The notes under the pieces were generated by a model. It did not search any database, was not told the DNA's origin, and saw only the letters and a list, made by a program, of their open reading frames with translations. A stretch of DNA of 64,000 bases from Fusobacterium ulcerans (GTDB taxonomy: Bacteria > Fusobacteriota > Fusobacteriia > Fusobacteriales > Fusobacteriaceae), in contig NZ_CP028105.1 in NCBI RefSeq assembly GCF_003019675.1, forward strand, positions 2,310,282-2,374,281. The letters are read 5' to 3'. The translations under genes and the position numbers were made by a program. The stretch's first letter is position 1. The number at the start of each line of letters is the position of its first letter. Positions 44,707-61,938 of this stretch are shown here, piece after piece.

Positions 44707-44729
44707 AAATTAAATATTGAAAATAGATG

Positions 44730-44761
44730 AGGAACCTTAAATACTTAGGGTTCCTTTTTTT
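44730..44761 (+). terminator. Terminator of the uvrA-ruvA operon
   Basis: An 11-bp stem AGGAACCTTAA / TTAGGGTTCCT (one G-U) with an ATAC loop, followed by TTTTTTT. Confidence 0.95.
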
Positions 44762-45194
44762 GTACCTAAAAATAAATTTAAAATGTATATAAAAATTAAA
44801 AAGCAAGATAATTTTTAAAAAATAAATAAAACTAAGTTATGAAATATACTATACTTTTTTAATAAGAGATACTAAAGAGGGAAATATGGTGTAAATACAG
44901 AAATTTTAATCAATATACTAAAAAATAAAAAACAGCAAAAGAAAAGAAATTATATAAAAAATAGCAGGTTCAATTAAAAACTATTTTACAAAGAAAAAAT
45001 AAAAATATGGAAGAAAAAATGAGAGAAGGGAAATATAGAAAAACAAATAAAGTATGATGAAATATATAAAAAATTAATAATTGACATGTAGAAAAAGAAA
45101 AAAATTACACAAGAGAAGAGAAAAGGAAAGATGCCTAAAAGAGAGAGGTAAAAAAATGACTCCTTAAAAAATGGGGAGTTAGGAGGTGTAAATA

Positions 45195-45411
45195 TTCGCA
45201 TTATTACAAAAAGGCGTCCTGTAGAAATCTTTTTCAAAAAAATAATCCGTGAAGCTTTTTAGAATTATAGATCAGTATAGGAAAATAATACTACTAAAAT
45301 AGAATATTGTCAATACTAAAAAAACCTATAATTTGACATTTTTAAGAAATGTTAGAACGATTTTATTGAGTTTTGGAAGAGAAAAAGTTCTCATTATTGT
45401 AATAATGCGAA
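45195..45411. other. Putative invertible promoter module 1
   Basis: TTCGCATTATTACAA at 45195-45209 is repeated in perfect inverse form at 45397-45411 (15 bp). The enclosed DNA contains a near-consensus minus-strand promoter. The right-hand repeat is itself part of a long hairpin (45382-45417). The module lies 288 bp upstream of the first gene of the polysaccharide operon. Its promoter faces away from that operon as sequenced. Function as an inverton is inferred from this architecture. Confidence 0.6.
45285..45313 (-). promoter_or_regulatory. Strong sigma-70 promoter inside inverted-repeat module 1
   Basis: On the minus strand TTGACA (complement of 45308-45313), exactly 17 bp, then TATTAT (complement of 45285-45290). 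It reads leftward, where there is no gene, so in this orientation it has no evident coding target. Confidence 0.75.
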
Positions 45412-45418
45412 CTTTTTT
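45382..45418. terminator. Long hairpin with A and T tracts at the right end of module 1
   Basis: AAAAAGTTC-T-CATTATT pairs with AATAATG-C-GAACTTTTT (16 pairs, one T/C mismatch). It resembles a bidirectional terminator but also contains the right inverted repeat. Confidence 0.6.
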
Positions 45419-45502
45419 AAATTATTTGGAAGTAACAATTTTTACAAAAATTAAAAATAGATATTAAATTTTAAAAATTGGAAAAAATATGAAATTCAAA
45501 CT

Positions 45503-45530
45503 TTGAAAAATGTTGGGAATAAAATAGATA
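45503..45530 (+). promoter_or_regulatory. Possible constitutive promoter of the polysaccharide operon
   Basis: TTGAAA, 16-bp spacer, TAGATA, about 165 bp before the first gene. Weaker than the promoter in the inverted-repeat module. Confidence 0.35.
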
Positions 45531-45698
45531 AAGGTTAAAGAATATGAGTAAAAATACATACATTTCAAATAAAACTATTAATTGAATATTTTAGATAAAA
45601 AATATTACAAAATATATAAAAAGAAATAAAATTAAAATATAGAATTAATATTTTTTAAATAAAAGCGAAAAAGAAACATTTGAAAATGGGGATGGGCT

Positions 45699-47009
45699 AT
45701 GAGACACAGCAGAAATGCAAAAATAAGAATAATATATTTTCTAATGCTCTTCTTTATGTATAGAAGTATATTTGTATATTTAGGATTAAGTATAAATACA
45801 GCAGTATATGGAATTTTTATTTTAATTTCTTTTTTTTACTATTTGTTAGATCTACTTAATTTCAATAATTATAAATATAAAACGAAAGATTTTATATATT
45901 CTAGTATTATAAATTTTTGTGGATTTTGTGTATTCTATTTTTTTTATAAAAAAATAGAATTTATTAATGCTTTTCTTTTTTATGACTTATTTCAAAATAC
46001 CCTAAGATATTTCCTTCTTATTTGCAATAAGAAAGTAATGAATGTAGCAATAATTGACAGTGGCGATTACACAAATAAAATAGCTGATATTTTGAAAAAA
46101 AACAAACAATATAATTATGTAGGATATTTAAATGATGAAGAAAGAAATAAAGAAAAATATCTTGGAAAAATAACAGATATAGAAAAAATAGTAAAAGAAA
46201 AAAATATAGAAAGTATAATTTTCACTAGCAGAAAGCAGATAATAAATTATTCAAATATAATAACTAATCTTAAATTACAGGGAATAAAAATAATAGATTA
46301 TATAAGCTTTTTAGAAAAATGTGAAGGAAAGATAGATACAGAAAAAATAGATGAGCTTTGGATAGTGATGTCAGATGGATTTTTAGTTTTAAATAATACA
46401 CTGCAAAAAAGAATAAAAAGGTTTTTTGATATAGTAGTATCAATATCGATGCTTACAGCAACTTTGCCTATTATAGTCCTTACTTACATATTAGTAAAAC
46501 TGGATATAGGGATTAAAAGCCCAATGAAAATAATTAGAAATCCAGCATTTTTTAAGCAGAAAAGAATAGGGATAAAGGGAAATGAATTTGAAATAATTAA
46601 ATTTAGAAGTATGAAGATACATGATCCAGCGAAATTTTCAAAATATGCTTCAGAAGATGACAATAGAATCACTTCAGTGGGAAAGTTTATAAGAAAAACA
46701 AGATTAGATGAACTACCACAATTAATAAATGTACTAAGAGGAGAGATGTCCTTTGTGGGACCTAGACCAGAATGGAATGAATTGGGAAGAGAATATGAGA
46801 AGAAAATAAAAAACTATAAGTTGCGATATGCAGTACAGCCAGGACTTACAGGTTGGGCACAAGTAATGTATTCATATGGAGCTTCATTGGAGGATGCAGA
46901 GATAAAACTGGAATATGATTTGTACTATATAAAACATCAAGATTTTGTAATGGATATGATTATATTTTTTAAAACATGTAAAACAGTAATATTTGGGAAG
47001 GGAAGATAA
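45699..47009 (+). CDS. Initiating sugar-phosphate transferase (undecaprenyl-phosphate hexose phosphotransferase)
   Basis: 436 residues. It transfers a sugar-1-phosphate to undecaprenyl phosphate, the first step of repeat-unit assembly, at the inner membrane. Four membrane segments at about 8-110, a Rossmann-like CoA-binding-type domain (about 115-215) and the catalytic Bac_transf domain from about 235: KRFFDIVVSISML (membrane anchor), KFRSMKIHD, RKTRLDELPQLINVLRGEMSFVGPRPE and VQPGLTGWAQV are classic. Sugar specificity (galactose, glucose or fucosamine) cannot be read. Confidence 0.93.
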   Translation: MRHSRNAKIRIIYFLMLFFMYRSIFVYLGLSINTAVYGIFILISFFYYLLDLLNFNNYKYKTKDFIYSSIINFCGFCVFYFFYKKIEFINAFLFYDLFQNTLRYFLLICNKKVMNVAIIDSGDYTNKIADILKKNKQYNYVGYLNDEERNKEKYLGKITDIEKIVKEKNIESIIFTSRKQIINYSNIITNLKLQGIKIIDYISFLEKCEGKIDTEKIDELWIVMSDGFLVLNNTLQKRIKRFFDIVVSISMLTATLPIIVLTYILVKLDIGIKSPMKIIRNPAFFKQKRIGIKGNEFEIIKFRSMKIHDPAKFSKYASEDDNRITSVGKFIRKTRLDELPQLINVLRGEMSFVGPRPEWNELGREYEKKIKNYKLRYAVQPGLTGWAQVMYSYGASLEDAEIKLEYDLYYIKHQDFVMDMIIFFKTCKTVIFGKGR

Positions 47010-47010
47010 A

Positions 47011-48207
47011 ATGGAAGTGACTTTATTGATTGATAATTTTATTCCAGATCTAGGAGCAGCATCTTTTAGATTTGAAAGTGTAGTAAAAGAGTTAGCAGAC
47101 AGAGGATATAAAGTTAAAATAATAGCTTCATATCCCAATAGAATAGAATTAAAAAATTTTAAAGAGTTTGAATATAAAGATATTGAAATATATAGAATAT
47201 GTAAAACAAAGCTAGCAGAAAATATATTAAGAAGAGCATTTAGATATTTTAAATTTTTCTATGAAGCTATAAAAATTGGGAAAAAAATAGCAAAAAAATC
47301 TGATATTGTAATAGCTACTAGTCCACAACTATTAGTAGGAGTAGCAGGGGCAATAATATCAAGGCTAAACAAGAAAGTTTTTTTAATAGATATAAGAGAC
47401 TTATGGCCAGATATAGTCTTAGATATGGGAGTGATGAAGAAATATAATCCTATATATTTATTTTTAAAAGTACTGGAGAAATATATGTATAGACAAAGTA
47501 AATTTTTAGTATACAATTCACCAGGATTCTATAACTACTTGATATCTAAGTATGATGAAGAAAAGATGAAATTGATAACTAACGGAATAGATGACTATAT
47601 TTTAAACTATTTTAAAAATAAAGAAATAAAAATAGAGGAAAAGGACAAATATAAAATTTTATATGCTGGAAATATCGGAATAGCTCAAGATATAAGAATT
47701 CTAATAGATTTAGCAGAAAAATATAGAACTAAAATAGAAATTATCATTATTGGAAAAGGCAGCCAGGAATCAATAATAAGAGATTTAATTAAAGAAAAAC
47801 AAATAACAAATGTCTATTTAATACCGTCAGTTCCAAGAAATAAATTATTAGAAAAATATGAGGAAGCTGACATATTATTTTTACAATTAAAAGATATTAA
47901 AATGTTCGAGAAAACGATTCCATCAAAAATATTTGAATACTTAGCTTCACAAAAACCTATTATTTATGGAGTAGAAGGTGTTGCTAAAACAATACTTAAA
48001 GAAGAATTTAATAGAAAATATTATTTTAAAGCTAACAATATTGAAGATTTAATAGGAACTTTTGAAAATTTAATAAAAGATATTGCAAAAAATAATTATG
48101 TAAAACCTGACTTAGAAGTATTAACTAATAATTATTCAAGAAAAATGCTAAGTAAAAAATATGTAGATAAAATTGAAAAAATCTATGAAAAAAATAAGTT
48201 TGAGTAA
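47011..48207 (+). CDS. Glycosyltransferase family 4 (WbuB/WcaI-like)
   Basis: 398 residues from the ATG at 47011 (GGGAAGGGAAG upstream). A GT-B retaining glycosyltransferase: N-terminal acceptor domain opening MEVTLLIDNFIPDLGAASFRFES, IDIRDLWPDIVLDMG as in L-fucosamine transferases of the WbuB kind, and a C-terminal donor domain with YAGNIGIAQDI and a PSKIFEYLASQKPIIYG motif carrying the usual phosphate-binding Glu nearby. Cytoplasmic face. The sugar donor is unknown. Confidence 0.88.
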   Translation: MEVTLLIDNFIPDLGAASFRFESVVKELADRGYKVKIIASYPNRIELKNFKEFEYKDIEIYRICKTKLAENILRRAFRYFKFFYEAIKIGKKIAKKSDIVIATSPQLLVGVAGAIISRLNKKVFLIDIRDLWPDIVLDMGVMKKYNPIYLFLKVLEKYMYRQSKFLVYNSPGFYNYLISKYDEEKMKLITNGIDDYILNYFKNKEIKIEEKDKYKILYAGNIGIAQDIRILIDLAEKYRTKIEIIIIGKGSQESIIRDLIKEKQITNVYLIPSVPRNKLLEKYEEADILFLQLKDIKMFEKTIPSKIFEYLASQKPIIYGVEGVAKTILKEEFNRKYYFKANNIEDLIGTFENLIKDIAKNNYVKPDLEVLTNNYSRKMLSKKYVDKIEKIYEKNKFE

Positions 48208-48231
48208 AAAATATTTATTAGGGAGTTTAAA

Positions 48232-49029
48232 ATGCTAGAAATTTCTATAATAATTCCAACATGCAAACCAGATTATTATATTTGGGAATGTTTAGATTCA
48301 ATAAAAAATCAATCTCTAGACAGAGTTTTTTTTGAAGTATTAATAATATTAAACGGAGATAAAGAACCATATTTTACAGAAATTAAAAATTATATAAAAA
48401 AAAATGAGTTAAATAATTTTAAATTAATTTATTCTAAAGAAAAAGGTGTTTCTAATGCGAGAAATATAGGTATTGAAATGTCTCAAGGAGATTATATTGC
48501 ATTTATTGATGATGATGATTATATAAGTAAAAATTATTTATTAAACTTCGAGAAAATTAAATCTGAAGATTCTTTATGTATTGCTAATTTTATTAACTTT
48601 AAGAAAAAATATGTAGTTTTGAAAGAAATAAAATATAAAATTAATGATTCAACAAGTTCATTAAATAAATATAGAAAAATATTTTCATATATTGGTGGAA
48701 AAATTATTTCAAAGAAAATTATTGAAAATATATTTTTTGATACGAATTTAAAAAATGGGGAAGATTCTTTATTTATGGTAGAAATAAGTAAAAATATAAA
48801 ATATATTAAAACAGGAGATCAAGATACTATTTATTATAGAAGAGTAAGAAATAATTCAGCAAACTTTAAAAAAAGAAAAAAAATGGAAATTATAAAAAAT
48901 AGTTATGGACAAATAAAAAAATATATTTCTTTTTATCATAACAATCAATATGATAAAATGTTTATTTTTATTAAAATAATGGCTGTTATAAAGGGAATGT
49001 TTGTAAGTATTTTTAGGAGAAAAATATGA
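48232..49029 (+). CDS. Glycosyltransferase family 2
   Basis: 265 residues, GT-A fold. ISIIIPTCKPDYYIWECLDSI opens the nucleotide-binding domain, GVSNARNIGIEMSQGDYIAFIDDDDYIS contains the DDD metal/donor site, and NGEDSLFMVEIS is the typical acceptor-region acidic motif. Inverting enzyme adding one residue to the lipid-linked repeat. Very A/T-rich, like its next two neighbours. Overlaps the following gene by 4 bp. Confidence 0.88.
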   Translation: MLEISIIIPTCKPDYYIWECLDSIKNQSLDRVFFEVLIILNGDKEPYFTEIKNYIKKNELNNFKLIYSKEKGVSNARNIGIEMSQGDYIAFIDDDDYISKNYLLNFEKIKSEDSLCIANFINFKKKYVVLKEIKYKINDSTSSLNKYRKIFSYIGGKIISKKIIENIFFDTNLKNGEDSLFMVEISKNIKYIKTGDQDTIYYRRVRNNSANFKKRKKMEIIKNSYGQIKKYISFYHNNQYDKMFIFIKIMAVIKGMFVSIFRRKI

Positions 49030-50096
49030 TTTATTTTATTAATTTTTTATTAAGTGTTTTATATTTCTATTCACTAAAACGATATAAAGATTTAACTTTT
49101 TTTATGTATTTTCCTATATTAATATTATGGACAATGATTATAGGATTGCAATTTGGAGTAGGAACAGATTACTTTAACTATTTAAGAATTTATAATAATC
49201 CTAATTATTTAGAGTTATATTTTAGAAAAAAAGAATATATATTTTATTTTTATATAAAATTTATAAAATTTTTTTTCATAGAAGGGCAATCATTTTTCAT
49301 TATAACATCCTTTTTAGAGAATTTAATATTTTATATTTATTTAAAAACTTTATTAAAAAACAAAATAATCAATTTAAAAAAATTATGGATATTTATTTTT
49401 TTGTTTTTATGCTTTGGAACAACATTTTATAATCAAACAAATGGGATAAGACAATATTTTAATATATATTTATTGATAATAATGAGTGTTTTTATAATAA
49501 ATAAAAATTTTCTATATTATAATATCATATTTTTTATTGGATTAAATATACATAGGAGTTTTCTTTTTTTATATCCTCTTTATTTTATAAATTTTATAAT
49601 AAAAAAGATTAATAAAAAAACTTTTATAATTTTTATAATTTTAGTTTTAATACTAAATTTCTTACCTATCGTTAAAGTTATAAAAGAGATTATAAAATTT
49701 GTTCCAAGATATAAGCATTATGTATATTATGATTATTTTTCAGAAATAACTTTGAAAAATAAAATAACAAAAATGATTTTTGTTCCATTTTATTTAGAAA
49801 GTGCAAAATTAATTGATAATATAAAAAATGAAAAAAAAGCTTTAATACTTAGATGGGGAATATTTGGATTTATAATAAGAATATTTTGTTTGAAAATAAC
49901 TGTATTAAATAGAATAGGAGAATATTTTGTTCTTTTGAGTTTATTTCCAATATATTTTTTAATAGAAAATTACATAGAAAAAAATAGCAAATTTAAATTA
50001 TTTATATTATTTTTTATGATACTAGGACTTTTTGTAACAAAAACTATTATTTTTCCTAAAGGAGAATATTTATATAATTCTTATTTATTTAATTAA
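49026..50096 (+). CDS. EpsG-like polysaccharide polymerase (Wzy candidate)
   Basis: 356 residues with about ten membrane segments. The FGVGTDYFNYLRIY loop and TNGIRQYFNIYLLI helix are hallmarks of the EpsG family, which polymerises repeat units at the outer face of the inner membrane. Such polymerases diverge rapidly and this one is extremely A/T-rich, consistent with horizontal exchange. Starts in an ATGA overlap with the GT2 gene. Wzy role is inferred from fold type and operon position with a flippase downstream. Confidence 0.8.
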   Translation: MIYFINFLLSVLYFYSLKRYKDLTFFMYFPILILWTMIIGLQFGVGTDYFNYLRIYNNPNYLELYFRKKEYIFYFYIKFIKFFFIEGQSFFIITSFLENLIFYIYLKTLLKNKIINLKKLWIFIFLFLCFGTTFYNQTNGIRQYFNIYLLIIMSVFIINKNFLYYNIIFFIGLNIHRSFLFLYPLYFINFIIKKINKKTFIIFIILVLILNFLPIVKVIKEIIKFVPRYKHYVYYDYFSEITLKNKITKMIFVPFYLESAKLIDNIKNEKKALILRWGIFGFIIRIFCLKITVLNRIGEYFVLLSLFPIYFLIENYIEKNSKFKLFILFFMILGLFVTKTIIFPKGEYLYNSYLFN

Positions 50097-50116
50097 TTTT
50101 AATTTGAAGGAGAAAG

Positions 50117-51313
50117 ATGAGAAAAAAAGTATTGTATATATCATCGCTTATAGTAAAAAAATCTAGTTCAGCTTCAATACGAAATACTGGTTTGGTAACA
50201 GGGTTAATAAAAAATAAAATTAATATAGAAATTTTAACTGTGAAGTATTTAGATGAACTGGAAGATGAATATTTAAAAAGCAAATTAGCAAATATTAAGA
50301 TTCATAATGTTGATTTAAAAATATTAAATAAATATTTAAATAAAAGATTTAAAGCAAAAAATGTAGAAAATAACATTTTTAAAAATATATTTAAAATAAT
50401 AAAAAATTTAATAAAAGAAATTTATTTTTTTCCTGATGTTGATAAAGAATGGATAACAGAATTTAATAAATTAAATATAGACTTTGAAGAATATGATCTA
50501 ATAGTTTCCTCTTCAGATACTAAAACTTCACATTATATAGGAGAAAAAATAAAAAAATTATATCCAAATATAATTTGGTTTCAAATTTGGGGAGATCCTT
50601 GGAGTAGTGATATAGGATTAAGCAAATTAAAAAAAATTAGAGCCAAATTTAAGGAAAAAGAGTTACTAAAAAAAGCAGATAGAATATTTTATGTATCTCC
50701 TTTTACACTAAACGATTTGAAAAATAAGTATCCAAAATTTAGTAATAAAATGAAATACATTCCAAGAGGTTATTTAGAAGAAGTTAAAGATAGTTCTAAG
50801 AGCGAAAGAGATAAAATTATTATAACATATACAGGAGTTTTGAATAAAAATAGAAATATATTGCATTTTTTAAAATTATTAAAAGAGTATAATGATAAAA
50901 ATTTAAAGAATATAGAATTTAATATATATGGAAATATAGATGATAGTCTTTTAAAGAATATAACAGTTTTTTCTTTTGTTTATTATAAAGGAAATGTTTC
51001 ATTTGAAGAAATAAAAGAAGTTTATAAAAAATCAGATTATTTATTGTTTATTGATAATGGAAATAATACTACTCAAATACCTGGGAAAATATATGATTAC
51101 TTAGGTACAAATAAAAAAATAATTTGTTTATTTAAAAATAAAAATGAGATATATAACTATTTTAAAAGTGAACTTCGGCTATTAACTTATCAAGAGAATG
51201 AAATTGATTTATTAGAAATTTTAAATTCTCCAGAAAGAGTAGTGGATAAAAGATTTTCAAATGATATTATTGCTAAAAAATTAATTGAGTATTATATGGA
51301 GATGAAAAAATGA
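50117..51313 (+). CDS. Glycosyltransferase, GT4-like
   Basis: 398 residues. MRKKVLYISSLIVKKSSSASIRNTGLVTG opens a GT-B N-domain; IIWFQIWGDPWSSDIG and FYVSPFTLNDLKNKYP mark the interdomain region, and the C-domain has ITYTGVLNKNRNI, and a QIPGKIYDYLGTNKKIICLF donor-binding segment. AAGGAG before ATG. The end overlaps wecB by 4 bp. Donor unknown. Confidence 0.82.
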   Translation: MRKKVLYISSLIVKKSSSASIRNTGLVTGLIKNKINIEILTVKYLDELEDEYLKSKLANIKIHNVDLKILNKYLNKRFKAKNVENNIFKNIFKIIKNLIKEIYFFPDVDKEWITEFNKLNIDFEEYDLIVSSSDTKTSHYIGEKIKKLYPNIIWFQIWGDPWSSDIGLSKLKKIRAKFKEKELLKKADRIFYVSPFTLNDLKNKYPKFSNKMKYIPRGYLEEVKDSSKSERDKIIITYTGVLNKNRNILHFLKLLKEYNDKNLKNIEFNIYGNIDDSLLKNITVFSFVYYKGNVSFEEIKEVYKKSDYLLFIDNGNNTTQIPGKIYDYLGTNKKIICLFKNKNEIYNYFKSELRLLTYQENEIDLLEILNSPERVVDKRFSNDIIAKKLIEYYMEMKK

Positions 51314-52404
51314 AAGTAGGATTAATATTTGGAACAAGACCTGAAGCAATAAAAATGTCTCCAGTGTATCATGAACTTAAAGGAAATGGAATAGATGTAA
51401 AAGTTGTAGTGACAGGTCAACATAAAGAAATGCTATATCAGGTATTAGATCTATTTGAAATAAAACCTGATTATGATTTAGAGATAATGAAGCAGGGACA
51501 GGGACTTTCAGAACTTACAGGAAGATTGATGTTGGAACTGGATAAAATAGTGAAAAAAGAAAAGTTTGACTATATCTTAGTTCAAGGAGATACAACATCA
51601 GTTCTCACAGGAGCATTAACAGCTTTCTATAATCAAATACCAGTGGGGCATATAGAAGCTGGACTTAGAACAGGAGATATATACTCTCCATTTCCAGAGG
51701 AAGCAAATAGAAAACTAGTTGGAAATATAGCTGATATCCACTTTGCACCTACAGATGTAAATGTAGATAACTTGCTGAGAGAAAATTATCCAAAAGAGAA
51801 GATAATAAAATGTGGGAACACAGTTATAGATGCTCTTTACTGGGTAAAGAAAAATAAGAATAAAGATATAGAAGAGATAAAGAAAAAGTATGGAGTAAAT
51901 GATAAAAAATATATTCTCATAACAATGCACAGAAGAGAAAACTGGGGTAAACCAATGGAAGAAACTCTAAGAGCAGTCAGAGATTATCTGGAGAAACATG
52001 AAAATATTTACTTAGTCTTTCCAATGCATTTAAATCCTTTAGTTAGAGATACAGCGCATAGAGTGTTAGATGGATTTGAAAGGAAAATTTTAATAGAACC
52101 TTTGGAGTATCTAGAATTTATAGCAATAATGGATGGAGCTCATTATATAATGACAGATTCGGGAGGAGTACAAGAAGAAGCACCAAGCTTAGGAAAGCCA
52201 ACACTTGTACTAAGAGATACAACAGAGAGGCCAGAAGCAATAGATGCAGGAACAGCAAAACTTACAGGAACAAAGTATGAAGATGTAATAAAAGATATGG
52301 AGCTATTAGAAGAAGAAACATATGAAAAGATGTCCAAAGCTAATAATCCATATGGAGATGGAAAAACATCAGAAAGAATAAGAAAATATTTAGAAACTAT
52401 CTAG
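51310..52404 (+). CDS. wecB: UDP-N-acetylglucosamine 2-epimerase
   Basis: 364 residues, full length. Converts UDP-GlcNAc to UDP-ManNAc in the cytoplasm. GTRPEAIKMSPVYHEL, GQHKEML, VQGDTTSVLTGALTAFY, HIEAGLRTGDIYSPFPEEANRK, THRRENWG-type (MHRRENWG) and DSGGVQEEAPSLGKPTLVLRDTTERPEA signatures are all intact. With the adjacent dehydrogenase it supplies UDP-ManNAcA. Higher GC than the glycosyltransferases before it. Confidence 0.96.
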   Translation: MKVGLIFGTRPEAIKMSPVYHELKGNGIDVKVVVTGQHKEMLYQVLDLFEIKPDYDLEIMKQGQGLSELTGRLMLELDKIVKKEKFDYILVQGDTTSVLTGALTAFYNQIPVGHIEAGLRTGDIYSPFPEEANRKLVGNIADIHFAPTDVNVDNLLRENYPKEKIIKCGNTVIDALYWVKKNKNKDIEEIKKKYGVNDKKYILITMHRRENWGKPMEETLRAVRDYLEKHENIYLVFPMHLNPLVRDTAHRVLDGFERKILIEPLEYLEFIAIMDGAHYIMTDSGGVQEEAPSLGKPTLVLRDTTERPEAIDAGTAKLTGTKYEDVIKDMELLEEETYEKMSKANNPYGDGKTSERIRKYLETI

Positions 52405-52424
52405 TTGACTTGGAGGAAGAAAAA

Positions 52425-53669
52425 ATGAACACACTTTTAAAGAAAGCAGAAGAAAAAGATTTAAAAATTACAATATTGGGAATGGGATATATAGGCCTTC
52501 CAACAGCAATAGCATTTGCAAGAGCTGGATTTACAGTAAATGGATTTGATGTAAATAAAAAAGTTATAGAAACTTTAAAAAATGGACATATCCATATAGT
52601 AGAACCAGATCTTCAGGAAGCTTTTGAAGAAGCTTTGGGAAGTGGGAGATTACTTCCTACGGATAAACTAGAAAAATCAGATGTATTTATAATAGCAGTA
52701 CCAACACCATTTAAAAAAGAACATGAAGAAAAAATAGCAGATCTATCATATGTAGGAAGCGGAGCAAAAGAAGTAGCTGAGGTATTGGAAGAGAATAATC
52801 TGGTTATACTGGAATCAACAGTTCCTCCAATGACAACAAAACTAATGACAGATATATTAGAAAGAGAATCAGGAATATCAAGAGATAAATTTATGACAGT
52901 TCATTGTCCAGAGAGAGTATTACCAGGAAAGATACTATATGAACTTGAGCATAATGACAGGATAATAGGAGCTGAAAGAAAAGAAGCAGCTGAATATACT
53001 AAGGTAATATATGAAGCAATGGTAAAAGAGGGAACATGCTATATAACAGATGATATAACAGCAGAAATGTGTAAATTAGTAGAGAATACTTTCAGAGATG
53101 TAAATATAGCTTTTGCAAATGAACTGTCAGTAATATGTGACAAGCTTAATATAAATGTTTTTGAACTTATAAAACTGGCAAATAAGCATCCAAGGGTAAA
53201 TATACTGACACCAGGAGCTGGAGTAGGAGGACATTGTCTTGCAGTAGATCCATGGTTTATAGTAGAGAAATTCCCTAAAGAAGCAAATGTAATAAGAGAA
53301 GCAAGATTAATTAATGATTTTAAACCAAGATTTATAGTAAATAAAGTAGATGAAATACTTAATGGGAATAAAGAATTGACAGTTGGAGTATTAGGATTAG
53401 CATATAAACCAGATATAGATGATCTTAGAGAGTCACCAGCAATGGAGATAGCAGAAATATTGAGGGATAAAGGATATGAAGTAATAGCTTGTGAACCAAA
53501 TGTAAATAAAGAAGAAGTGGATGGATTCAAGCTTTATTCTTTAGAAGAAATTCTAAAAAAAGCTGATTATTTAGTATTAGCACAGGGGCATAAAGAGTTT
53601 AAAGAAAATATACAACTATTAAAAACTAAAAAAATATACGACTGTTTAGGAATAATAAATCTAATTTAG
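52425..53669 (+). CDS. wecC: UDP-N-acetyl-D-mannosamine dehydrogenase
   Basis: 414 residues from the ATG at 52425 (TTGGAGGAAG upstream; the TTG at 52410 is in that site). Oxidises UDP-ManNAc to UDP-ManNAcA with two NAD+. NAD-binding ITILGMGYIGLPTAIAFARAGF, VPTPFKKE, STVPPMTT, CPERVLPGKILYELEHNDRIIG and the catalytic GAGVGGHCLAVDPWF (with the active Cys) are present, then VGVLGLAYKPDIDDLRESPA. Follows wecB directly, so the polymer probably contains ManNAcA. Confidence 0.95.
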   Translation: MNTLLKKAEEKDLKITILGMGYIGLPTAIAFARAGFTVNGFDVNKKVIETLKNGHIHIVEPDLQEAFEEALGSGRLLPTDKLEKSDVFIIAVPTPFKKEHEEKIADLSYVGSGAKEVAEVLEENNLVILESTVPPMTTKLMTDILERESGISRDKFMTVHCPERVLPGKILYELEHNDRIIGAERKEAAEYTKVIYEAMVKEGTCYITDDITAEMCKLVENTFRDVNIAFANELSVICDKLNINVFELIKLANKHPRVNILTPGAGVGGHCLAVDPWFIVEKFPKEANVIREARLINDFKPRFIVNKVDEILNGNKELTVGVLGLAYKPDIDDLRESPAMEIAEILRDKGYEVIACEPNVNKEEVDGFKLYSLEEILKKADYLVLAQGHKEFKENIQLLKTKKIYDCLGIINLI

Positions 53670-53767
53670 TTAATTTTTTTATTACATCTAAGATTCTTTA
53701 CAGAAAAGAAAGAAATATGCACATAAAGCTTCTAATATATTGCATCTATAAAGATAATGATAAATTT

Positions 53768-53855
53768 ATGAAGGAGTACAGGAAGAAATACCAAGAGCGG
53801 GCATTTGTATTAATAACTTGTATAAATATGGAAGACTTCTAAAAAATATCTAAGT
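53768..53855 (+). pseudogene. Possible small wecB-like relic in an intergenic gap
   Basis: In the 243-bp gap 53670-53912, bases around 53773-53794 read GGAGTACAGGAAGAAATACC, nearly the same as the GVQEEAP-coding segment of wecB (about 52167-52188), and translate as EGVQEEIPRAG before decaying. A 25-codon alternative frame starts at the ATG at 53768. No other content is recognised in the gap. Confidence 0.3.
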
Positions 53856-53912
53856 ATCTAATAATTTAGAGAAAAATTATAATAAAAAAGTATTAGAAAA
53901 AGGAGAAAAAAA

Positions 53913-54947
53913 ATGCGAATTATTTTATGTGACAATAGAATGGAAGGACATCATAAGCCATATTTTTCTACACTTTTAAAGTTAAATTATACCAAATTAA
54001 AGTATGTAGAATTAGATTTAGCTCCTTCACTAAAAAAGAATTTTTTTAAATATTTCCTCTCTAGAAGGAAACTAATTAAAGAGTTTTTAAAAAATAATGA
54101 AGAGAATGATGATGTTATAGTACATTTTTTAACTTTAGATTTTATTTATTCATATATGTTTTTAAAAAAAAGTATAAATGCAATTGGAACTTTACATCAA
54201 GTTCCTAAAAGTTTATTAAAAAAGATATTTTTAAAGATTTTTTCTAAAAAAATAAGATTAATAATCGTACATTCAGAATTTCTAAAAGAAAATTTAAAAA
54301 GAATGGGAATAGAAAATGTAAGAGTAGTAAATTATCCTAGTTTTTATAACTATTCAAAAATTGGGAATAAAAATGAATTAAGAATAAAAAATAAAATAGA
54401 TAGTGAAAAAATAGTATTGAGTTGTTTAGGAGGAACAAGGAAGGATAAAGGATTAAATATTTTGTTAGAAAGTCTGAAATATATAAATATAAATTTTAAA
54501 AAAAATCTTTTAATAAATATAGTTGGAAAAGAAGAAGAATTTAAAAAAGAGTATATAGAGAAAGAATTAAAAGATATACCAAATAGAATAATACTAGAAA
54601 AAGTAAGTGATGATGAGTTTATGGAAAATATTCTAATAACTGATTTAATGATTATGCCATATTTAAAATCTTTTGGTGGGGTAAGTGGTCCAATGACAGA
54701 AGCAATTGTTAATAAAATACCATGTATAGCTCCAAAAGAATTAGAAATTGGAAAAATTATAATAGAAAAAAATATAGGAGAAGTATTTAATTGTGAAGAC
54801 CCTATTGATTTAGCAAGAGTAATAGAAGAAACAATAAAAAAAATAAATAGTTATTACAATACAAATTATCATACTAAATTAACTAAAGAAAATTTTTTAA
54901 AAAAATATGATGAAATATATAAAAATATCTGTGAAAATAAAAATTAG
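53913..54947 (+). CDS. Glycosyltransferase, GT4-like
   Basis: 344 residues. The opening IILCDNRMEGHHKPYFSTLL resembles GT-B acceptor domains, and the donor domain shows LSCLGGTRKDKGLNILLESL and FGGVSGPMTEAIVNKIPCIAPKE. Very A/T-rich. AAAAGGAG before the ATG. It follows the gap after wecC, so it may be a later insertion into the operon; sugar donor unknown. Confidence 0.82.
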   Translation: MRIILCDNRMEGHHKPYFSTLLKLNYTKLKYVELDLAPSLKKNFFKYFLSRRKLIKEFLKNNEENDDVIVHFLTLDFIYSYMFLKKSINAIGTLHQVPKSLLKKIFLKIFSKKIRLIIVHSEFLKENLKRMGIENVRVVNYPSFYNYSKIGNKNELRIKNKIDSEKIVLSCLGGTRKDKGLNILLESLKYININFKKNLLINIVGKEEEFKKEYIEKELKDIPNRIILEKVSDDEFMENILITDLMIMPYLKSFGGVSGPMTEAIVNKIPCIAPKELEIGKIIIEKNIGEVFNCEDPIDLARVIEETIKKINSYYNTNYHTKLTKENFLKKYDEIYKNICENKN

Positions 54948-54990
54948 AAAATTATTTGAAAAAATAATTAAATTTTAAGGAGAGATTTTA

Positions 54991-56070
54991 ATGAAAAAGA
55001 TAGCATTAATAACAGGAATAACAGGACAAGATGGCTCATATCTTGCAGAATTTCTTTTAGATAAAGAATATGAAGTACATGGAATAATAAGAAGAGCTTC
55101 AACTTTTAATACAGGAAGAATAGAACATCTATATATAGATGATTTAATTGAAGATATGCATAAAGAAAGAAAAATATACCTTCATTATGGAGATATGACA
55201 GATTCTATGAGTATAACAAGATTAATAAGAGAAATAAAACCAACAGAAATATATAACCTTGCAGCACAATCTCATGTACAGGTATCTTTTGAAGTACCAG
55301 AGTATACAGCTGATTCAAATGCAGTAGGAGTATTAAGAATACTTGAAGCAGTAAGATTTTTAGGAATGGAAAAAACTTGCAGGATATATCAAGCTTCCAC
55401 TTCAGAATTGTTTGGAAGAGTACAGGAAGTACCACAAAAAGAAACAACACCATTTTATCCAACATCACCATATGCAGTAGCAAAGCAGTATGGATATTGG
55501 ATAGTAAAAAACTATAGAGATGCCTATGATATGTATGCAGTAAATGGAATACTATTCAATCATGAAAGTGAAAGAAGAGGAGAAACATTTGTAACAAGGA
55601 AAATAACATTAGCAGCAGCAAGAATATCAAAAGGATATCAGAAAAAACTATACTTAGGAAATCTGAATGCGCTTAGAGACTGGGGATATGCAAAAGACTA
55701 TATTGAATGTATGTGGCTTATGATGCAGCAAGATAAACCAGAAGATTTTGTAATAGCAACAGGAGAACAATACTCCGTGAGAGATTTTTGTAATATAGCA
55801 TTTAAAGAAGTAGGAATAGAAATAGAATGGTGTGGAGAAGGTATAAACGAAAAAGGAATAAATAAAGTAACAGGAGAAACGGTAATAGAAGTAGATCCAA
55901 AATACTTTAGACCTTCAGATGTAGAAACATTACTAGGAGACCCAACAAAAGCAAGAACAGTACTAGGATGGAATCCAAGAAAAACATCATTTAAGAATTT
56001 AGTAAAAATAATGGTAGAACATGATTTAGGATTTGTGGAAAAAGATCATTTTTTAAAAGTAAGGGGATAA
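54991..56070 (+). CDS. gmd: GDP-mannose 4,6-dehydratase
   Basis: 359 residues, full length. Converts GDP-D-mannose to GDP-4-dehydro-6-deoxy-D-mannose. SDR Rossmann motif [66 protein letters not shown], the YxxxK pair in [12 protein letters not shown], and [12 protein letters not shown] are diagnostic. AAGGAGAG before ATG. Feeds the next gene's reductase or epimerase-reductase. Confidence 0.97.
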
Positions 56071-56073
56071 GTC

Positions 56074-57012
56074 ATGATAAATTTAAAAGAAAAGCAAATA
56101 ATAGTAACAGGTGGAGCAGGTTTTTTAGGATCTCATGTCATTCAAAAATTATTGGAAAGAGGTTGTAAGAAAGAAAATATTTTTATTCCAAGAAGTAAAA
56201 ATTATAATTTAACTAAAGAAAGAGATGTAAAAAAATTATATGAAGATTTTAAAGCAGATATAGTTATTCATATTGCAGCAGATATAGGAGGAATAGGATA
56301 TAGTAAAACACACCCAGCATCTCAATTTTATAATAATTTAATGATGAATACTTTAATACAAGATTTAGCATATAAAAATAGAGTGGAAAAATTTGTAGGA
56401 ATAGGAACTGTATGCTCTTATCCTAAGTTTGCTCCAGTTCCATTTAAAGAAGAAGATTTATGGAATGGATATCCTGAAGAAACAAATGCAGCTTATGGAT
56501 TAAGCAAAAAGATGATGTTAGTGCAGTCACAAGCCTATAGAGAACAATATAATTTTAATGCAATTCATTTGTTGATGATCAATTTATATGGACCAAAAGA
56601 TAACTTTTCTTTGGAATCATCACATGTAATTCCAGCATTAATAAGAAAAATGTTAAAAGCAAATGAAGAAAATTCAGATATTGAAGTATGGGGAGATGGA
56701 AGTGCATCAAGAGAATTTATTTTTGTTGAGGATGCAGCAGAGGCAATAATACTTGCAACAGAAATGTATGATGGAAAAGAACCTGTAAACATAGGAAATG
56801 GTCAAGAAATTTCAATAAAAGAATTAATAGGAATTTTAGCAAATTTATTAAAATTTCAAGGTAAAATTATTTGGGATAAAACAAAACCAAATGGACAACC
56901 TAAAAGAAGATTGGATGTTTCAAAGGCTAAAAAATATTTTGATTTTAAAGCAAAGATGGAATTAAAAGAAGGGTTAAATGAAACGATAAAATGGTATTTG
57001 GAGAATAATTGA
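56074..57012 (+). CDS. GDP-L-fucose-synthase-like NAD(P)-dependent epimerase/reductase
   Basis: 312 residues, extended SDR. VTGGAGFLGSHVIQKLLERG binds cofactor, HIAADIGGIGYSKTHPASQFYNNLMMN and GIGTVCSYPKFAPVPFKEEDLWNGYPEETNAAYGLSKKMMLVQ match GDP-fucose synthase (Fcl), with the Tyr-Lys pair in AAYGLSKK, and DNFSLESSHVIPALIRK follows. Next to gmd it most likely makes GDP-L-fucose, but related enzymes make GDP-colitose or other 6-deoxyhexoses. Four bases after gmd; its TGA overlaps the flippase ATG. Confidence 0.9.
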   Translation: MINLKEKQIIVTGGAGFLGSHVIQKLLERGCKKENIFIPRSKNYNLTKERDVKKLYEDFKADIVIHIAADIGGIGYSKTHPASQFYNNLMMNTLIQDLAYKNRVEKFVGIGTVCSYPKFAPVPFKEEDLWNGYPEETNAAYGLSKKMMLVQSQAYREQYNFNAIHLLMINLYGPKDNFSLESSHVIPALIRKMLKANEENSDIEVWGDGSASREFIFVEDAAEAIILATEMYDGKEPVNIGNGQEISIKELIGILANLLKFQGKIIWDKTKPNGQPKRRLDVSKAKKYFDFKAKMELKEGLNETIKWYLENN

Positions 57013-58310
57013 TGAATAGATTTGACATTTTAAAAAAACAAGTGTCGTTTGGAATGATATATAAAATATTAAGTATGGGATTAAGTTATTTTTCAATTCC
57101 TTTATTTTTAAAATATTTAGGTCAGCAGGATTATGGGTTATGGATGACAATTTTTTCAATTGTAAGTTGGATATATACATTTGATTTAGGAATAGGAAAT
57201 GGACTTAAAAATAAGCTTACAGAAAGCTTAACTAAAAAAAATTATAATGAGGCTAGAGAATATATAACTACTGGATATATTGTTTTAGGAATAATAGCCA
57301 TATGTATTCTTACTTTAGGATTAATTGGAATTAAAGTAATAGATATTGGAAAATTTTTAAATATAGATTTTTATAGTGAAAATTATATAAAATTAATATT
57401 TGAGATAGTATTTGCAATGACTATTTTAAATTTTATAGTTTTTTTATATAAAACTTTTTATCTTTCTATTCATAATAGTTCTATTATGAATCTGGGTAAT
57501 TTTTTATTTCAATTACTCTTTATTATTTCACTATATATCCTTAATTATTATAATAAAGTTTCATTAATAACAGTATCAATAATTTATCCTGGAATAAATT
57601 TAATATTAGGATTATTTTTTACAAAAAAGTTTTTTAATAAATATAAAGAATTGACTCCCAGTATTAAGAGTTTTAGTAAAAAAAAAATAAAAGGGATAGG
57701 AAGTATAGGAATAAGTTTTTTTATAATACAAATATCAGTGCTCTTCATACTTACTGTTGACAATTTATTGATAACAAAATATGTAGGAACAGATGCTGTA
57801 GCAAGTTATAGTATAGTTTCTAAATTGTTTCAGAGCTTTATAGTATTGGAGTCAATAATTTCAGTTCCTATGTGGACTTTATTTCTTGATTCATATATAA
57901 AAAAAGATAAAAAATGGATACTAAATATATTTAAAAAAATTAATATATTATTTCTATTTTTAATAATAGTAATAATAGTAGTTATATTTTTAGCACCTTA
58001 TATAATTAAAATATGGATAGGGCGAGAAATATTTATTCCTAAATATCTTATTTTATTATGGGGAATATTTGTATTAAATAGAGTATATGGAGATATACAT
58101 ATGATTTTTATAAATGGAACAGGAAAAATTCATTTACAAATGTGGCTATATGTTTTAGGAGGTATCATTAATATCCCTCTTTCTATATATTTTATAAGGG
58201 ATTTAGACATGGGAAGTAGTGGAGCGATTCTTGGAACGAATATATGCATGTTACCATTGGCAGTAATAATGCCCATACAAGCACACTTTATCATAAAGAA
58301 AATGAAATAA
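57012..58310 (+). CDS. Polysaccharide flippase (Wzx-like, MOP superfamily)
   Basis: 432 residues with about 12-14 membrane segments. Opens with FDILKKQVSFGMIYKILSMGLSYFSIPLFLKYLG and DYGLWMTIFSIVSWIYTFDLGIGNGLKNKLTE, typical of the RfbX/Wzx group. Flips the undecaprenyl-linked repeat to the periplasmic face. Coupled to the preceding gene by TGATG overlap. Together with the EpsG-like protein, it supports a Wzx/Wzy-dependent pathway. Confidence 0.9.
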   Translation: MNRFDILKKQVSFGMIYKILSMGLSYFSIPLFLKYLGQQDYGLWMTIFSIVSWIYTFDLGIGNGLKNKLTESLTKKNYNEAREYITTGYIVLGIIAICILTLGLIGIKVIDIGKFLNIDFYSENYIKLIFEIVFAMTILNFIVFLYKTFYLSIHNSSIMNLGNFLFQLLFIISLYILNYYNKVSLITVSIIYPGINLILGLFFTKKFFNKYKELTPSIKSFSKKKIKGIGSIGISFFIIQISVLFILTVDNLLITKYVGTDAVASYSIVSKLFQSFIVLESIISVPMWTLFLDSYIKKDKKWILNIFKKINILFLFLIIVIIVVIFLAPYIIKIWIGREIFIPKYLILLWGIFVLNRVYGDIHMIFINGTGKIHLQMWLYVLGGIINIPLSIYFIRDLDMGSSGAILGTNICMLPLAVIMPIQAHFIIKKMK

Positions 58311-58326
58311 TGAGGTAAATAAAGAA

Positions 58327-60054
58327 ATGGTAGAAAATATATTACAAAAATATAATAAATGGGCAAAAATAGAATTTATTACTATAAATGAAAAACTAGA
58401 AGTAAAAGAATTAAAAGATGAAGAAATAAAAGATAGTTTTTATAAATACCTTGAGTTTGGAACAGGTGGAATGAGAGGAATAATGGGGATGGGAACTAAT
58501 CGTATGAATATATATATGATTAGAAAAGCTACTCAAGGATTTTCAAATTATTTAATCAATTCAAGTGGTGAATTCGGAAAGAATAAAGGTGTTGTAATTG
58601 CATATGACTGCCGGATTAATTCATATGAATTTGCTTTGAATTCAGCATTAGTACTGTGTGCCAATGGAATAAAAACATATCTGTTTTCTTCATTAAGAAG
58701 TACTCCAGAACTTTCATTTGCTGTAAGAGAACTTGAATGTCAGGCTGGAATAATGATAACAGCTTCACATAATCCTAAAGAATACAACGGATATAAAGTA
58801 TATTGGAAAGATGGAGGACAATTAGTAGAGCCTCAAGCTTCTGGGATAATAGAAGAAGTAAATAAAACAGATGAATTTGAAGATGTAAAGATTGTAGCTC
58901 AAGAGGAAGCAGAAAAGTCAGGGTTATTAAATATTTTAAATGATGAATTAGACAGTAAATATTTAGAAAAGGTAAAGAAAGAATCTATTTTAAAAGATTT
59001 ATCTAATAAAGAGAATTTTAAATTAGCATATTCTCCTCTTCATGGAACAGGTGGAAGACCAGTAAAAAGACTGTTAAATGAATTAGGATATAAAAATGTA
59101 TATATAGTTGAAGCGCAGAAGAAGCCAGATGGAGAATTTCCAACTTGTTCATATGCCAATCCAGAAGAAAAAAATGTATTTGATCTTTCAATAAAGTTAG
59201 CAGATGAAATAGGAGCTAAAGTATGTTTAGCAAATGACCCTGATGCTGACAGAACAGGAATGATGGTAAAAGAAAAAAATGAATGGATATATCTTAATGG
59301 AAATCAGATAGGAATGCTTCTTTTAAAATATATTTTAGACAATAAAAAAGATATACCTAAAAATGGAGCAGTAGTTACAACAATAGTTTCTACACCAATA
59401 TTAGATAAGATAACAGGAGAAAGAAATTTAAAAGTATTTAGAACTCTTACAGGATTTAAATATATAGGAGAAAAGATAAGAGAATTTGAAGAAGGAAAAT
59501 ATGATAATTCTTTTGTATTTGGAATGGAAGAATCTATTGGATATCTAAAAGGAACCTATGTAAGAGATAAAGATGGAATACTTGGAGTAATGCTTTTAAC
59601 TGAAATGGTAGCATACTTTGAAAGCATAGGAACATCTTCAGTGAAAGAACTAAGAAAACTCTATGATAAATATGGTTGGTATAGTGAAATAACATATCCT
59701 GTAACAAGAGAAGGAATACAAGGAACAGAAGAAATAAAAAAGATGATGGAAGAACTTAGAAAAAGAGATTTAAAAGTTCTTTTAGATAAAAAGATAAATA
59801 TTGTAAGAGACTATAAGTTGAAAAAAGAAAAGAACTATTTAGATAATTCAGAATCAGAATTACTTCTTCCAAAGTCAGATGTTATTCAATATATTTTAGA
59901 AGATGAAACATACATAACAGTAAGACCATCAGGAACAGAACCAAAGATAAAATATTACATCTATACTAAAGGAAAAAATAAGAAAGAAGCAGATGAAAAA
60001 CTAGAGAATGTATTAAATGATTTTAAAGGATATATGGAATCACTTTTGAACTAG
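58327..60054 (+). CDS. Phosphohexomutase (phosphoglucomutase/phosphomannomutase)
   Basis: 575 residues. Interconverts hexose-6-phosphate and hexose-1-phosphate. Catalytic Ser147 lies in MITASHNPKEYNGYKVYW, the metal loop is NDPDADRTG, and the sugar loop EESIGYLKG; TVRPSGTEPKIKYY is the phosphate-binding domain. The length fits the alpha-PGM type, but placement directly before a mannose-1-phosphate guanylyltransferase suggests mannose-1-phosphate supply in vivo. Confidence 0.92.
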   Translation: MVENILQKYNKWAKIEFITINEKLEVKELKDEEIKDSFYKYLEFGTGGMRGIMGMGTNRMNIYMIRKATQGFSNYLINSSGEFGKNKGVVIAYDCRINSYEFALNSALVLCANGIKTYLFSSLRSTPELSFAVRELECQAGIMITASHNPKEYNGYKVYWKDGGQLVEPQASGIIEEVNKTDEFEDVKIVAQEEAEKSGLLNILNDELDSKYLEKVKKESILKDLSNKENFKLAYSPLHGTGGRPVKRLLNELGYKNVYIVEAQKKPDGEFPTCSYANPEEKNVFDLSIKLADEIGAKVCLANDPDADRTGMMVKEKNEWIYLNGNQIGMLLLKYILDNKKDIPKNGAVVTTIVSTPILDKITGERNLKVFRTLTGFKYIGEKIREFEEGKYDNSFVFGMEESIGYLKGTYVRDKDGILGVMLLTEMVAYFESIGTSSVKELRKLYDKYGWYSEITYPVTREGIQGTEEIKKMMEELRKRDLKVLLDKKINIVRDYKLKKEKNYLDNSESELLLPKSDVIQYILEDETYITVRPSGTEPKIKYYIYTKGKNKKEADEKLENVLNDFKGYMESLLN

Positions 60055-60067
60055 GAGGAAAAGGAAG

Positions 60068-61141
60068 ATGTTAACAGCAATTATTATGGCAGGAGGAAGT
60101 GGAGAGAGGTTCTGGCCATTATCAACACCAGAAAGGCCAAAGCAACTTCTAAAAATATTTTCAGATAAAACTATGATAAGAGAAACTGTTGACAGGATAC
60201 TTCCTATAATAGAAGCAGAAAATATATTTATAGCGACGAATATCATACAAGCAAAAGAGATAGAAAAAGAATTAAGCGATATTCCTAAAGAAAATATAAT
60301 AATAGAACCAGCTTTTAAAGATACAGCAGCAGCAATAGGATATTCTTCTTTGATAATAGAAAATAGATTTAAAAATAGATTAAAAGATGGAGAAAAGCTA
60401 GAAGTAGTAGTACTAGCTTCAGATCATCTAATTAAAGAGGAAGAAGAATTTAGAAAAGTCATACTAATTGCAGCAAAAGAAGCAAAAGAAAATGGAATGA
60501 TAGTTACTTTAGGAATAAAACCAGACAAACCAGAAACAGGATATGGATATATAGAAGTAAAATATGATGAAATAGAACTTAATTCTATATATAAAGTAAA
60601 AAGATTTAGAGAAAAACCAAGTCAGGAATTAGCTGAAAGTTATCTTTCAAGTGGAAAATATCTTTGGAATAGTGGAATGTTTATATTTACGATAGATACT
60701 ATATTTAAAAATTTTGAAGTATTGATGGAAGAACATTCAACAATATTTAAAGAAATAGAAAAAGAATTTAAAGAAAATTTAACAGGAGAAGAACTTAGCA
60801 ACAAAGTAAAGAGATACTTTGATAAATTTGAAAAAATATCAATAGATTTTGGAATAATGGAATATTCAAAAAATATCCGAGTAATACCAGTAGATATAGG
60901 TTGGAATGATATAGGAAGCTTTAATGCATTTGATGAGATATTTGAAAAAGATGAAAATGGAAATGTAGTGAGAGGAAAAGAGATAAGAGAATTAGATTCA
61001 AAAAACAATATAGTAATATCAGATGATTTGAATATTTCATTATTAGGAATAGAAAATTTAGTAATAGTAAAAAAAGATAAAGAACTTTTAATATCAAAGA
61101 AAAATAAGACACAGGAAATAAAAAAAATTTTAAATAGATAA
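60068..61141 (+). CDS. manC: Mannose-1-phosphate guanylyltransferase
   Basis: 357 residues. Makes GDP-mannose from Man-1-P and GTP. TAIIMAGGSGERFWPLSTPERPKQ is the nucleotide-binding signature; ASDHLI, TGYGYIEV, FREKPS, LWNSGMFIF and VDIGWNDIGSF follow. The C-terminal cupin isomerase domain of long ManC proteins is absent, so phosphomannose isomerase must come from elsewhere. GGAGGAAAAGG before ATG. Confidence 0.94.
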   Translation: MLTAIIMAGGSGERFWPLSTPERPKQLLKIFSDKTMIRETVDRILPIIEAENIFIATNIIQAKEIEKELSDIPKENIIIEPAFKDTAAAIGYSSLIIENRFKNRLKDGEKLEVVVLASDHLIKEEEEFRKVILIAAKEAKENGMIVTLGIKPDKPETGYGYIEVKYDEIELNSIYKVKRFREKPSQELAESYLSSGKYLWNSGMFIFTIDTIFKNFEVLMEEHSTIFKEIEKEFKENLTGEELSNKVKRYFDKFEKISIDFGIMEYSKNIRVIPVDIGWNDIGSFNAFDEIFEKDENGNVVRGKEIRELDSKNNIVISDDLNISLLGIENLVIVKKDKELLISKKNKTQEIKKILNR

Positions 61142-61159: not shown

Positions 61160-61471
61160 ATGACAGAAAAAGAGTTTTTAACCTTATATAAGGAAAGAAG
61201 GAATCTAAAAAGCATAAGAGAAGCAAAAGAAAGATTAGATTCTTTCTGGAAAGCTCTTTTTGATGTTTTAGAAGAAGAAGAAAAAGTAATAATAAAAGAC
61301 TGGGGAATATTTGAAAAGAAAGAAGTAAAACCAAGAAAGATATTAAATCTAGCTACTAGAGAAATGATGATAACAGAAGAAAAGAAAGTTATCAAATTTA
61401 AACCTAGAATGAAAATGATAGATAAAGTAAATGAACTCAATACTCTAATGGAGGAAGAATATGAACACTAG
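61160..61471 (+). CDS. HU/IHF-family DNA-binding-like protein
   Basis: 103 residues. Two N-terminal helices (REAKERLDSFWKALFDVL) followed by VIIKDWGIFEKKEVKPRKILNLATREMM and VIKFKPRMKMIDKVN, which match the GFGTFEVRERAARKGRNP...FKPGKALKDAVN frame of HU. The intercalating Pro is displaced in the arm (loss of RNP). It ends 11 bp inside the next HU-like gene. Such proteins bend DNA; here one sits at the end of a polysaccharide operon beside an inverted-repeat module. Role unknown. Confidence 0.8.
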   Translation: MTEKEFLTLYKERRNLKSIREAKERLDSFWKALFDVLEEEEKVIIKDWGIFEKKEVKPRKILNLATREMMITEEKKVIKFKPRMKMIDKVNELNTLMEEEYEH

Positions 61472-61742
61472 AGAATTTGTATCATATTACAAAAAATTGA
61501 GAAAAGAGCAGGATGAAACAATAGAATATGAAGAAGCAAGAGAAGAGATAGAAGAGATATTTAATCTTATAGCAGAAGTAATAGCTATGGATGAAGAGGT
61601 AAAATTTAAAAATAAAGGAACTTTCTCTCTTTTAAAAAGAAAAAAGAGAAGAATAGGCAGTCCAACTTCAAAAGAAGTGAGAGAAATAATTCCTAAAAAA
61701 ACAATAAAATTTGTACAATCAAAAATATTAGAAATAAGTTGA
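61461..61742 (+). CDS. Second, divergent HU/IHF-family protein
   Basis: 93 residues, overlapping the first HU-like gene by 11 bp with GGAGG before its ATG. EEAREEIEEIFNLIAEVIAM forms the helical part, and VKFKNKGTFSLLKRKKRRIGSPTSKEVREI with KTIKFVQSKILEIS the beta-arm and C-terminal helix. Translational coupling with its partner suggests a heterodimer like IHF. Stop codon lies 8 bp before the left inverted repeat of module 2. Confidence 0.75.
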   Translation: MNTREFVSYYKKLRKEQDETIEYEEAREEIEEIFNLIAEVIAMDEEVKFKNKGTFSLLKRKKRRIGSPTSKEVREIIPKKTIKFVQSKILEIS

Positions 61743-61751
61743 GAAAAAGAG

Positions 61752-61780
61752 TTCGCTTTTATGTATAAAGGCGAAGTTTT
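61752..61780 (+). terminator. Hairpin at the end of the polysaccharide operon
   Basis: 11-bp stem TTCGCTTTTAT / ATAAAGGCGAA, loop GT, followed by GTTTT. It is 9 bp after the last HU-like stop, so it could terminate the operon as well as form the left repeat. Confidence 0.5.
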
Positions 61781-61787
61781 AAAACCT

Positions 61788-61816
61788 TTGAAGGTAGATA
61801 AGTTAAAAACTTTAAT
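61788..61816 (+). promoter_or_regulatory. Weak possible promoter inside module 2
   Basis: TTGAAG, 17-bp spacer, TTTAAT, reading toward the MBOAT gene. A comparable minus-strand candidate (TTGTAA, 18 bp, TTTAAT) also exists, so direction cannot be decided by eye. Confidence 0.3.
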
Positions 61817-61938
61817 AAATAAAGTTAAAAAAATAATTCTAATAATATTTTTATTAAATTCTTAAATAAAGAACATTTACAAAAAATAAAGAGTTCTCTT
61901 TTATACATAAAAGCGAACACTTAAATCTTGGAGGAGTA

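Follow-up and report, generated by a model that had tools for sequence, protein, structure and literature searches.

The polysaccharide operon in the analysed window (the whole stretch of 64,000 nucleotides) very probably stands behind a phase-variable inverton, which switches the downstream genes on and off through the action of a tyrosine recombinase, most likely the one designated clade B below. Phase variation by inversion is strongly supported for the family of elements to which this switch belongs. In the proposed mechanism, the recombinase, encoded at an unlinked locus, would pair two 26-bp palindromic sites, whose arms recur in every inverton of the window genome (G000; 3,537,675 bases in one contig) and whose central bases match within the pair, and would invert the 193 bp between them. 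In the OFF state the promoter would fire leftward into a terminator, and a second terminator, with the right-hand site as its stem, would shield the operon. In the ON state the promoter would face the operon and half of the terminator stem would be replaced by the inversion, so that the terminator is gone and the transcript has about 370 nt of leader. The operon closes with two genes for an IHF-like pair, which may bend DNA at the sites and exert feedback on switching. The parts that we infer are the inversion of the window copy itself, judged from sequence comparison, the enzyme and the role of the HU pair.

The preliminary description had reported a perfect 15-bp inverted repeat, TTCGCATTATTACAA, and we recovered it at 45195-45209 (plus strand) and 45397-45411 (minus strand) with 187 bp inside. 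Counted as 15-mers with a spacing of 100-300 and at least 4 G+C, the window has five such inverted repeats, whereas second-order Markov windows average 0.017. The arms are the common halves of two 26-bp imperfect palindromes of the form GTTC[G/T]CnTT-N8-AAnG[A/C]GAAC, the right one of which doubles as the stem of an intrinsic terminator (Table 1). The promoter proposed between the arms is likewise present and aimed away from the operon, which begins 288 bp to the right of the right arm, so the orientation as sequenced is OFF. Reflection about the site centres places the flipped -35 and -10 elements at 45293-45321 on the plus strand, as predicted. Sequence, place and leftward direction of the promoter thus stand; the motif match alone does not exceed chance, since the sigma-70 scan, which on its own has no statistical weight, found 24 matches with 22 expected. 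Across 11 copies of the element in four species the -35 does not vary and the -10 reads TAT[T/C]AT. With a promoter set between inverted repeats ahead of a surface gene, the element has the layout of an invertible-promoter switch.

Table 1. Features of the switch, its operon and related elements. Positions refer to the window unless a locus is named.
Feature	Position	Strand	Basis and remarks
Left recombination site, imperfect palindrome ATTCGCATTATTACAAAAAGGCGTCC	45194..45219	+	Contains the left arm
Right recombination site, palindrome GTTCTCATTATTGTAATAATGCGAAC on +	45387..45412	-	Contains the right arm
Invertible segment, 193 bp, centre to centre of sites	45207..45399	.	Deduced from the reversed paralogue G000:912838 (L034); exact crossover points predicted
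Promoter TTGACA-17-TATTAT	45285..45313	-	Motif scan
Intrinsic terminator, OFF state, stem GAAAAAGTTC.CATTAT / ATAATG.GAACTTTTTT	45381..45418	+	Fold -13.8 kcal/mol; 5' half within the invertible segment; putative function
Terminator-like hairpin and T-run CTCCCCATTTTTTAAGGAGTCATTTTTTT	45150..45178	-	Sequence, fold -4.6 kcal/mol; would halt the OFF-orientation transcript, putative function
Conserved switch region: upstream flank, inverton and leader	44721..45698	+	Common to other polysaccharide-locus copies
Polysaccharide operon	45699..61141	+	Initiating sugar transferase, glycosyltransferases, EpsG-type polymerase, UDP-GlcNAc 2-epimerase, UDP-sugar dehydrogenase, GDP-mannose dehydratase, flippase, PMM, ManC-like
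HU/IHF-like gene, first subfamily, 103 aa, penultimate in operon	61160..61471	+	PF00216 1.7e-14; subfamily tree
HU/IHF-like gene, second subfamily, 93 aa, last in operon	61461..61742	+	PF00216 2.3e-9; subfamily tree
Second inverton, same site type	61751..61918	.	19-bp perfect arms GTTCGCTTTTATGTATAAA; before MBOAT gene 61939-63357; paralogue G000:271343
Clade A recombinase segments, FadA adhesin locus	L097:4683-5475, L100:4981-5773, L105:5088-5881		21-bp repeats AAATATCTTATATTAACCATT

Genome-wide, the site is abundant in the window genome and three congeners (G008, G009 and G010), with 45, 57, 50 and 58 occurrences, respectively, at up to two mismatches and 0-4 in eight other congeners. At up to one mismatch the counts are 31, 41, 37 and 44, and none of the 57 remaining genomes in the family has more than 1; a reversed-pattern control gave 0-1 matches. 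The sites pair mostly 140-235 bp apart. In 32 of 42 pairs the eight central bases are identical, compared with 5.4 expected on shuffling (maximum 14), so each site has two arms flanking a short central stretch that is the same in both partners, as in invertons of the tyrosine-recombinase type. Common arms with matching crossover regions therefore fit the requirement of a tyrosine recombinase. The 45 sites of G000 form about 24 invertons, in a catalogue built from pattern matches and retrieved stretches that misses more degenerate sites. Their targets are the three polysaccharide operons, together with genes for at least ten autotransporters, two MBOAT acyltransferases, one outer-membrane barrel protein and one heptosyltransferase-like protein, and also HU-like genes. 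A scan of wider genome contigs, from which close relatives were probably left out, gave no match to the site or the recombinase, and viral contigs scanned for two site types contained neither.

Small serine invertases were not found in G000, where the only serine recombinase is a large one of 504 aa. The genome encodes two 198-aa tyrosine recombinases that are 75% identical, clade A (G000:3280800) and clade B (G000:2057860), and 198-aa enzymes of this kind (PF00589), at 73-98% identity, are confined to the four inverton species. This co-occurrence of recombinase and sites counts as a single phylogenetic event, because the four species are closely related. The clade B gene is intact in exactly these four species, has no repeats of its own and is unlinked to the window switch. 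Clade A was our first assumption for the invertase and was dropped: it lies inside its own invertible segment in the FadA-adhesin locus, and in G009 it has decayed. The segment is bounded by 21-bp repeats that differ from the switch sites and is found in the opposite orientation in G008; the G009 pseudogene retains the repeats (L043:548-1319). Clade B is the better candidate because G009 keeps its 50 sites without an intact clade A, and it is likely the enzyme that flips the switches. That clade A, or else a genus-wide 189-aa recombinase, performs the inversion is conceivable for small tyrosine recombinases both encoded in G000, but we regard it as less likely than inversion by clade B, given the clade A features above and the presence of 189-aa-type enzymes (173-191 aa) also in most congeners that lack the sites.

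Searching with a 251-bp query, we found three matches in G000 (at 288 kb, at 912.8 kb and in the window), four in G008, two in G009 and two in G010. Apart from the window copy, nine of the ten homologous copies precede polysaccharide operons; the exception, L038, precedes an HU-like gene. The polysaccharide loci open with a sugar transferase of 436 or 453 aa, as assigned by Pfam for four loci and by 81-99% protein identity for the remainder. The copies occupy three conserved slots: that of the window with L036, L039 and L041; that of L033, L035, L040 and L042; and that of L034 and L037. DNA identity of the window's switch region is 73-89% to L033, L035, L040 and L042, with shorter matches to L034, L037 and L038. 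When every copy was turned so that its operon stands to the right, the inner segment of L034 (G000:912838) matched that of the window at 95% in reverse and at 81%, over a shorter alignment, unreversed, while its flanks matched unreversed at 97% and 85%. The L034 segment is thus flipped relative to the window and the eight other copies compared, and faces its operon. Its orthologue in G008, L037, is not reversed, with neighbouring genes 92-98% identical. L044, an inverton of a different type that precedes genes for an HU-like protein and an autotransporter of 1,429 aa, is reversed with respect to L148, L043 and L157, and in an all-against-all comparison of the retrieved invertons with homologous flanks exactly these two, L034 and L044, were reversed. 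Homologous copies in both orientations between conserved flanks support the inverton reading of the preliminary description.

The uniform OFF state of the window slot, shared by the window copy with L036, L039 and L041 from three species, would also be expected of a former inverton now locked OFF, with the operon expressed by read-through or from another promoter. The left site of the window deviates from the consensus, with A for G at the outer base and three mismatches, and a single-site autotransporter locus described below indicates that locking does occur. Nevertheless, the 15-bp core, the promoter and the terminator are intact, and the inner-arm sequence GGACGCC occurs in the reversed copy L034 as well. 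Moreover, OFF is the usual state: of the 18 invertons in which promoter and target are both clear, 15 stand OFF and three ON, and only one of the three polysaccharide operons of G000 is ON. A locked switch in the window is therefore improbable. The element might, in addition, be taken for a dispersed repeat (MITE or REP-like), which is multi-copy and has terminal inverted repeats, without any switching; we rejected this reading as having hardly any probability, because homology extends hundreds of bases into both flanks (in L033 for 2,300 bp, including the first gene) and the inner segments of L034 and L044 are reversed relative to their flanks, and the copies also occupy orthologous promoter positions.

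According to the preliminary description, an ON transcript would have to pass the terminator embedded in the right repeat. This difficulty disappears: the right-hand recombination site itself forms the stem and is halved by the crossover, and with half of the stem inside the invertible segment inversion breaks the hairpin. In silico inversion weakened the window hairpin from -13.8 to -3.6 kcal/mol, and the naturally flipped L034 likewise carries only the broken form by folding. A single inversion would hence, as far as folding predicts, both aim the promoter at the operon and remove the terminator. Among the polysaccharide-type copies, to which the folding was applied, the swap is clear in G000, G008, L039 and slot 1 of G010, weak in L040 and G009, absent in L041, and weak to absent in L042. 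That the repeats form merely an RNA hairpin, a static bidirectional terminator or attenuator in front of the operon, agrees with the very good intrinsic terminator into which the right palindrome folds, but it does not account for the remote left repeat, for centres that match within pairs or for the reversed copies, an Rfam search returned nothing beyond a chance match, and we give it next to no credence.

The first gene of the window operon encodes a PF02397 sugar transferase. Genes neighbouring the slots are mostly 90-98% identical between species, whereas behind the switches the operons vary; the first genes of the L034 operon are 97-100% identical to those in slot 1 of G008. Operons have been swapped among the three slots and among species with the switch region retained (L033-L037, L039-L042), and on these sequence relationships the polysaccharide operons resemble cassettes that can be exchanged while the switch is conserved.

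The window operon ends with two overlapping HU-like genes (61160-61742). Such genes (PF00216) number 55, 55, 48 and 58 in G000, G008, G009 and G010, compared with mostly four in other congeners, two of which hold 7 and 15; the HU/IHF-like family has grown about tenfold only in the inverton species. Most of the genes stand in tandem at the ends of switched operons, paired so that each of two distinct subfamilies contributes one member. Of the HU genes of G000, 51 are non-core, and 40 of these are found no more than 20 kb downstream of an inverton and on its target strand (random mean 3.5, maximum 11), and in all three polysaccharide operons the pair follows 12-16 kb downstream of the inverton. 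In the tree, first and second pair members separate into one clade each (a single change; 100/95 support; 0/500 shuffles), as expected for an IHF-like alpha/beta heterodimer. The pair may bend the switch DNA or feed back on switching; alternatively, the genes may serve the nucleoid in general or hitch-hike in the cassettes. As a tentative extension, which we hold with less than even confidence, most phase-variable operons would encode their own IHF-like heterodimer, of two subfamilies in fixed order, feeding back on inversion as a combinatorial switchboard. If so, operons in the ON state would stabilise, reset or exclude other switches, and about 50 HU paralogues and two dozen invertons would act as one network. 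To our knowledge, co-expansion of paired HU/IHF-like genes with DNA switches has not been described; it makes the coordination of invertons a directly testable question.

Several known systems share parts of this design. In the fim switch of E. coli an invertible promoter is also flipped by tyrosine integrases, and the candidate enzyme here resembles FimB, which has about 200 aa, in size. IHF takes part in fim switching, a parallel to the linked IHF-like pair here, although we know of no fim counterpart to a dedicated HU pair per operon. The fim recombinases lie adjacent to a single switch, whereas here the enzyme is unlinked and the switches are many. The fimS segment inverted by FimB measures 314 bp (PMC9993118). 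In Bacteroides fragilis, Mpi inverts 13 regions (PMC4747536), and the PSA-PSH loci resemble the present ones in having several polysaccharide operons per genome with invertible promoters, a shared site and a trans-acting master enzyme. However, Mpi is a serine recombinase, of which G000 has no small invertase type; the first gene here encodes a sugar transferase instead of upxY, the upxY/upxZ arrangement being absent; and a terminator built from the site and an HU pair at the operon end set the present loci apart. The RecV-controlled cwpV switch of C. difficile, with a 195-bp segment, has an OFF-state intrinsic terminator at the repeat junction that is lost on inversion (PMC2784873, PMC8844915). 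RecV is similarly unlinked and serves several switches, and the OFF-only terminator is shared, here as judged by folding; in contrast, the promoter lies outside the inverted DNA at cwpV but itself flips here, and the number of switches is about 24. In the switch described here, an inverting promoter would thus be united with a terminator whose stem, as predicted by folding, is the recombination site itself. In another phylum, an inverton precedes the capsule locus cps1 of Akkermansia (PMC13343947), with a different repeat motif, CGGATT..AATCCG.

We found no description of invertons or DNA-inversion phase variation in Fusobacterium in the open-access literature searched, with a listing in Jiang et al. 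2019 possible, and the genome paper of F. varium Fv113-g1, which reports a 3.96-Mb genome, two plasmids and 44 autotransporters, makes no mention of inversion (PMC5720691). If our reading is correct, DNA flipping lets gut fusobacteria associated with ulcerative colitis and colorectal cancer vary both their polysaccharides and many of their autotransporter adhesins, and a single reference genome captures one mostly-OFF state.

Two further loci of G000 depart from the regular pattern. Between its usual flanks the autotransporter-type locus L152 (G000:2753750) has only one recombination site; its invertible segment seems, from the sequence, to have been lost and the gene locked. The inverton at G000:2934129-2935030 (L153) is interrupted by an insertion resembling an IS200-type transposase gene. 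The window itself contains a second inverton between the HU-like pair and the MBOAT acyltransferase gene. No strong sigma-70 promoter was found inside it, and its paralogue has the same orientation.
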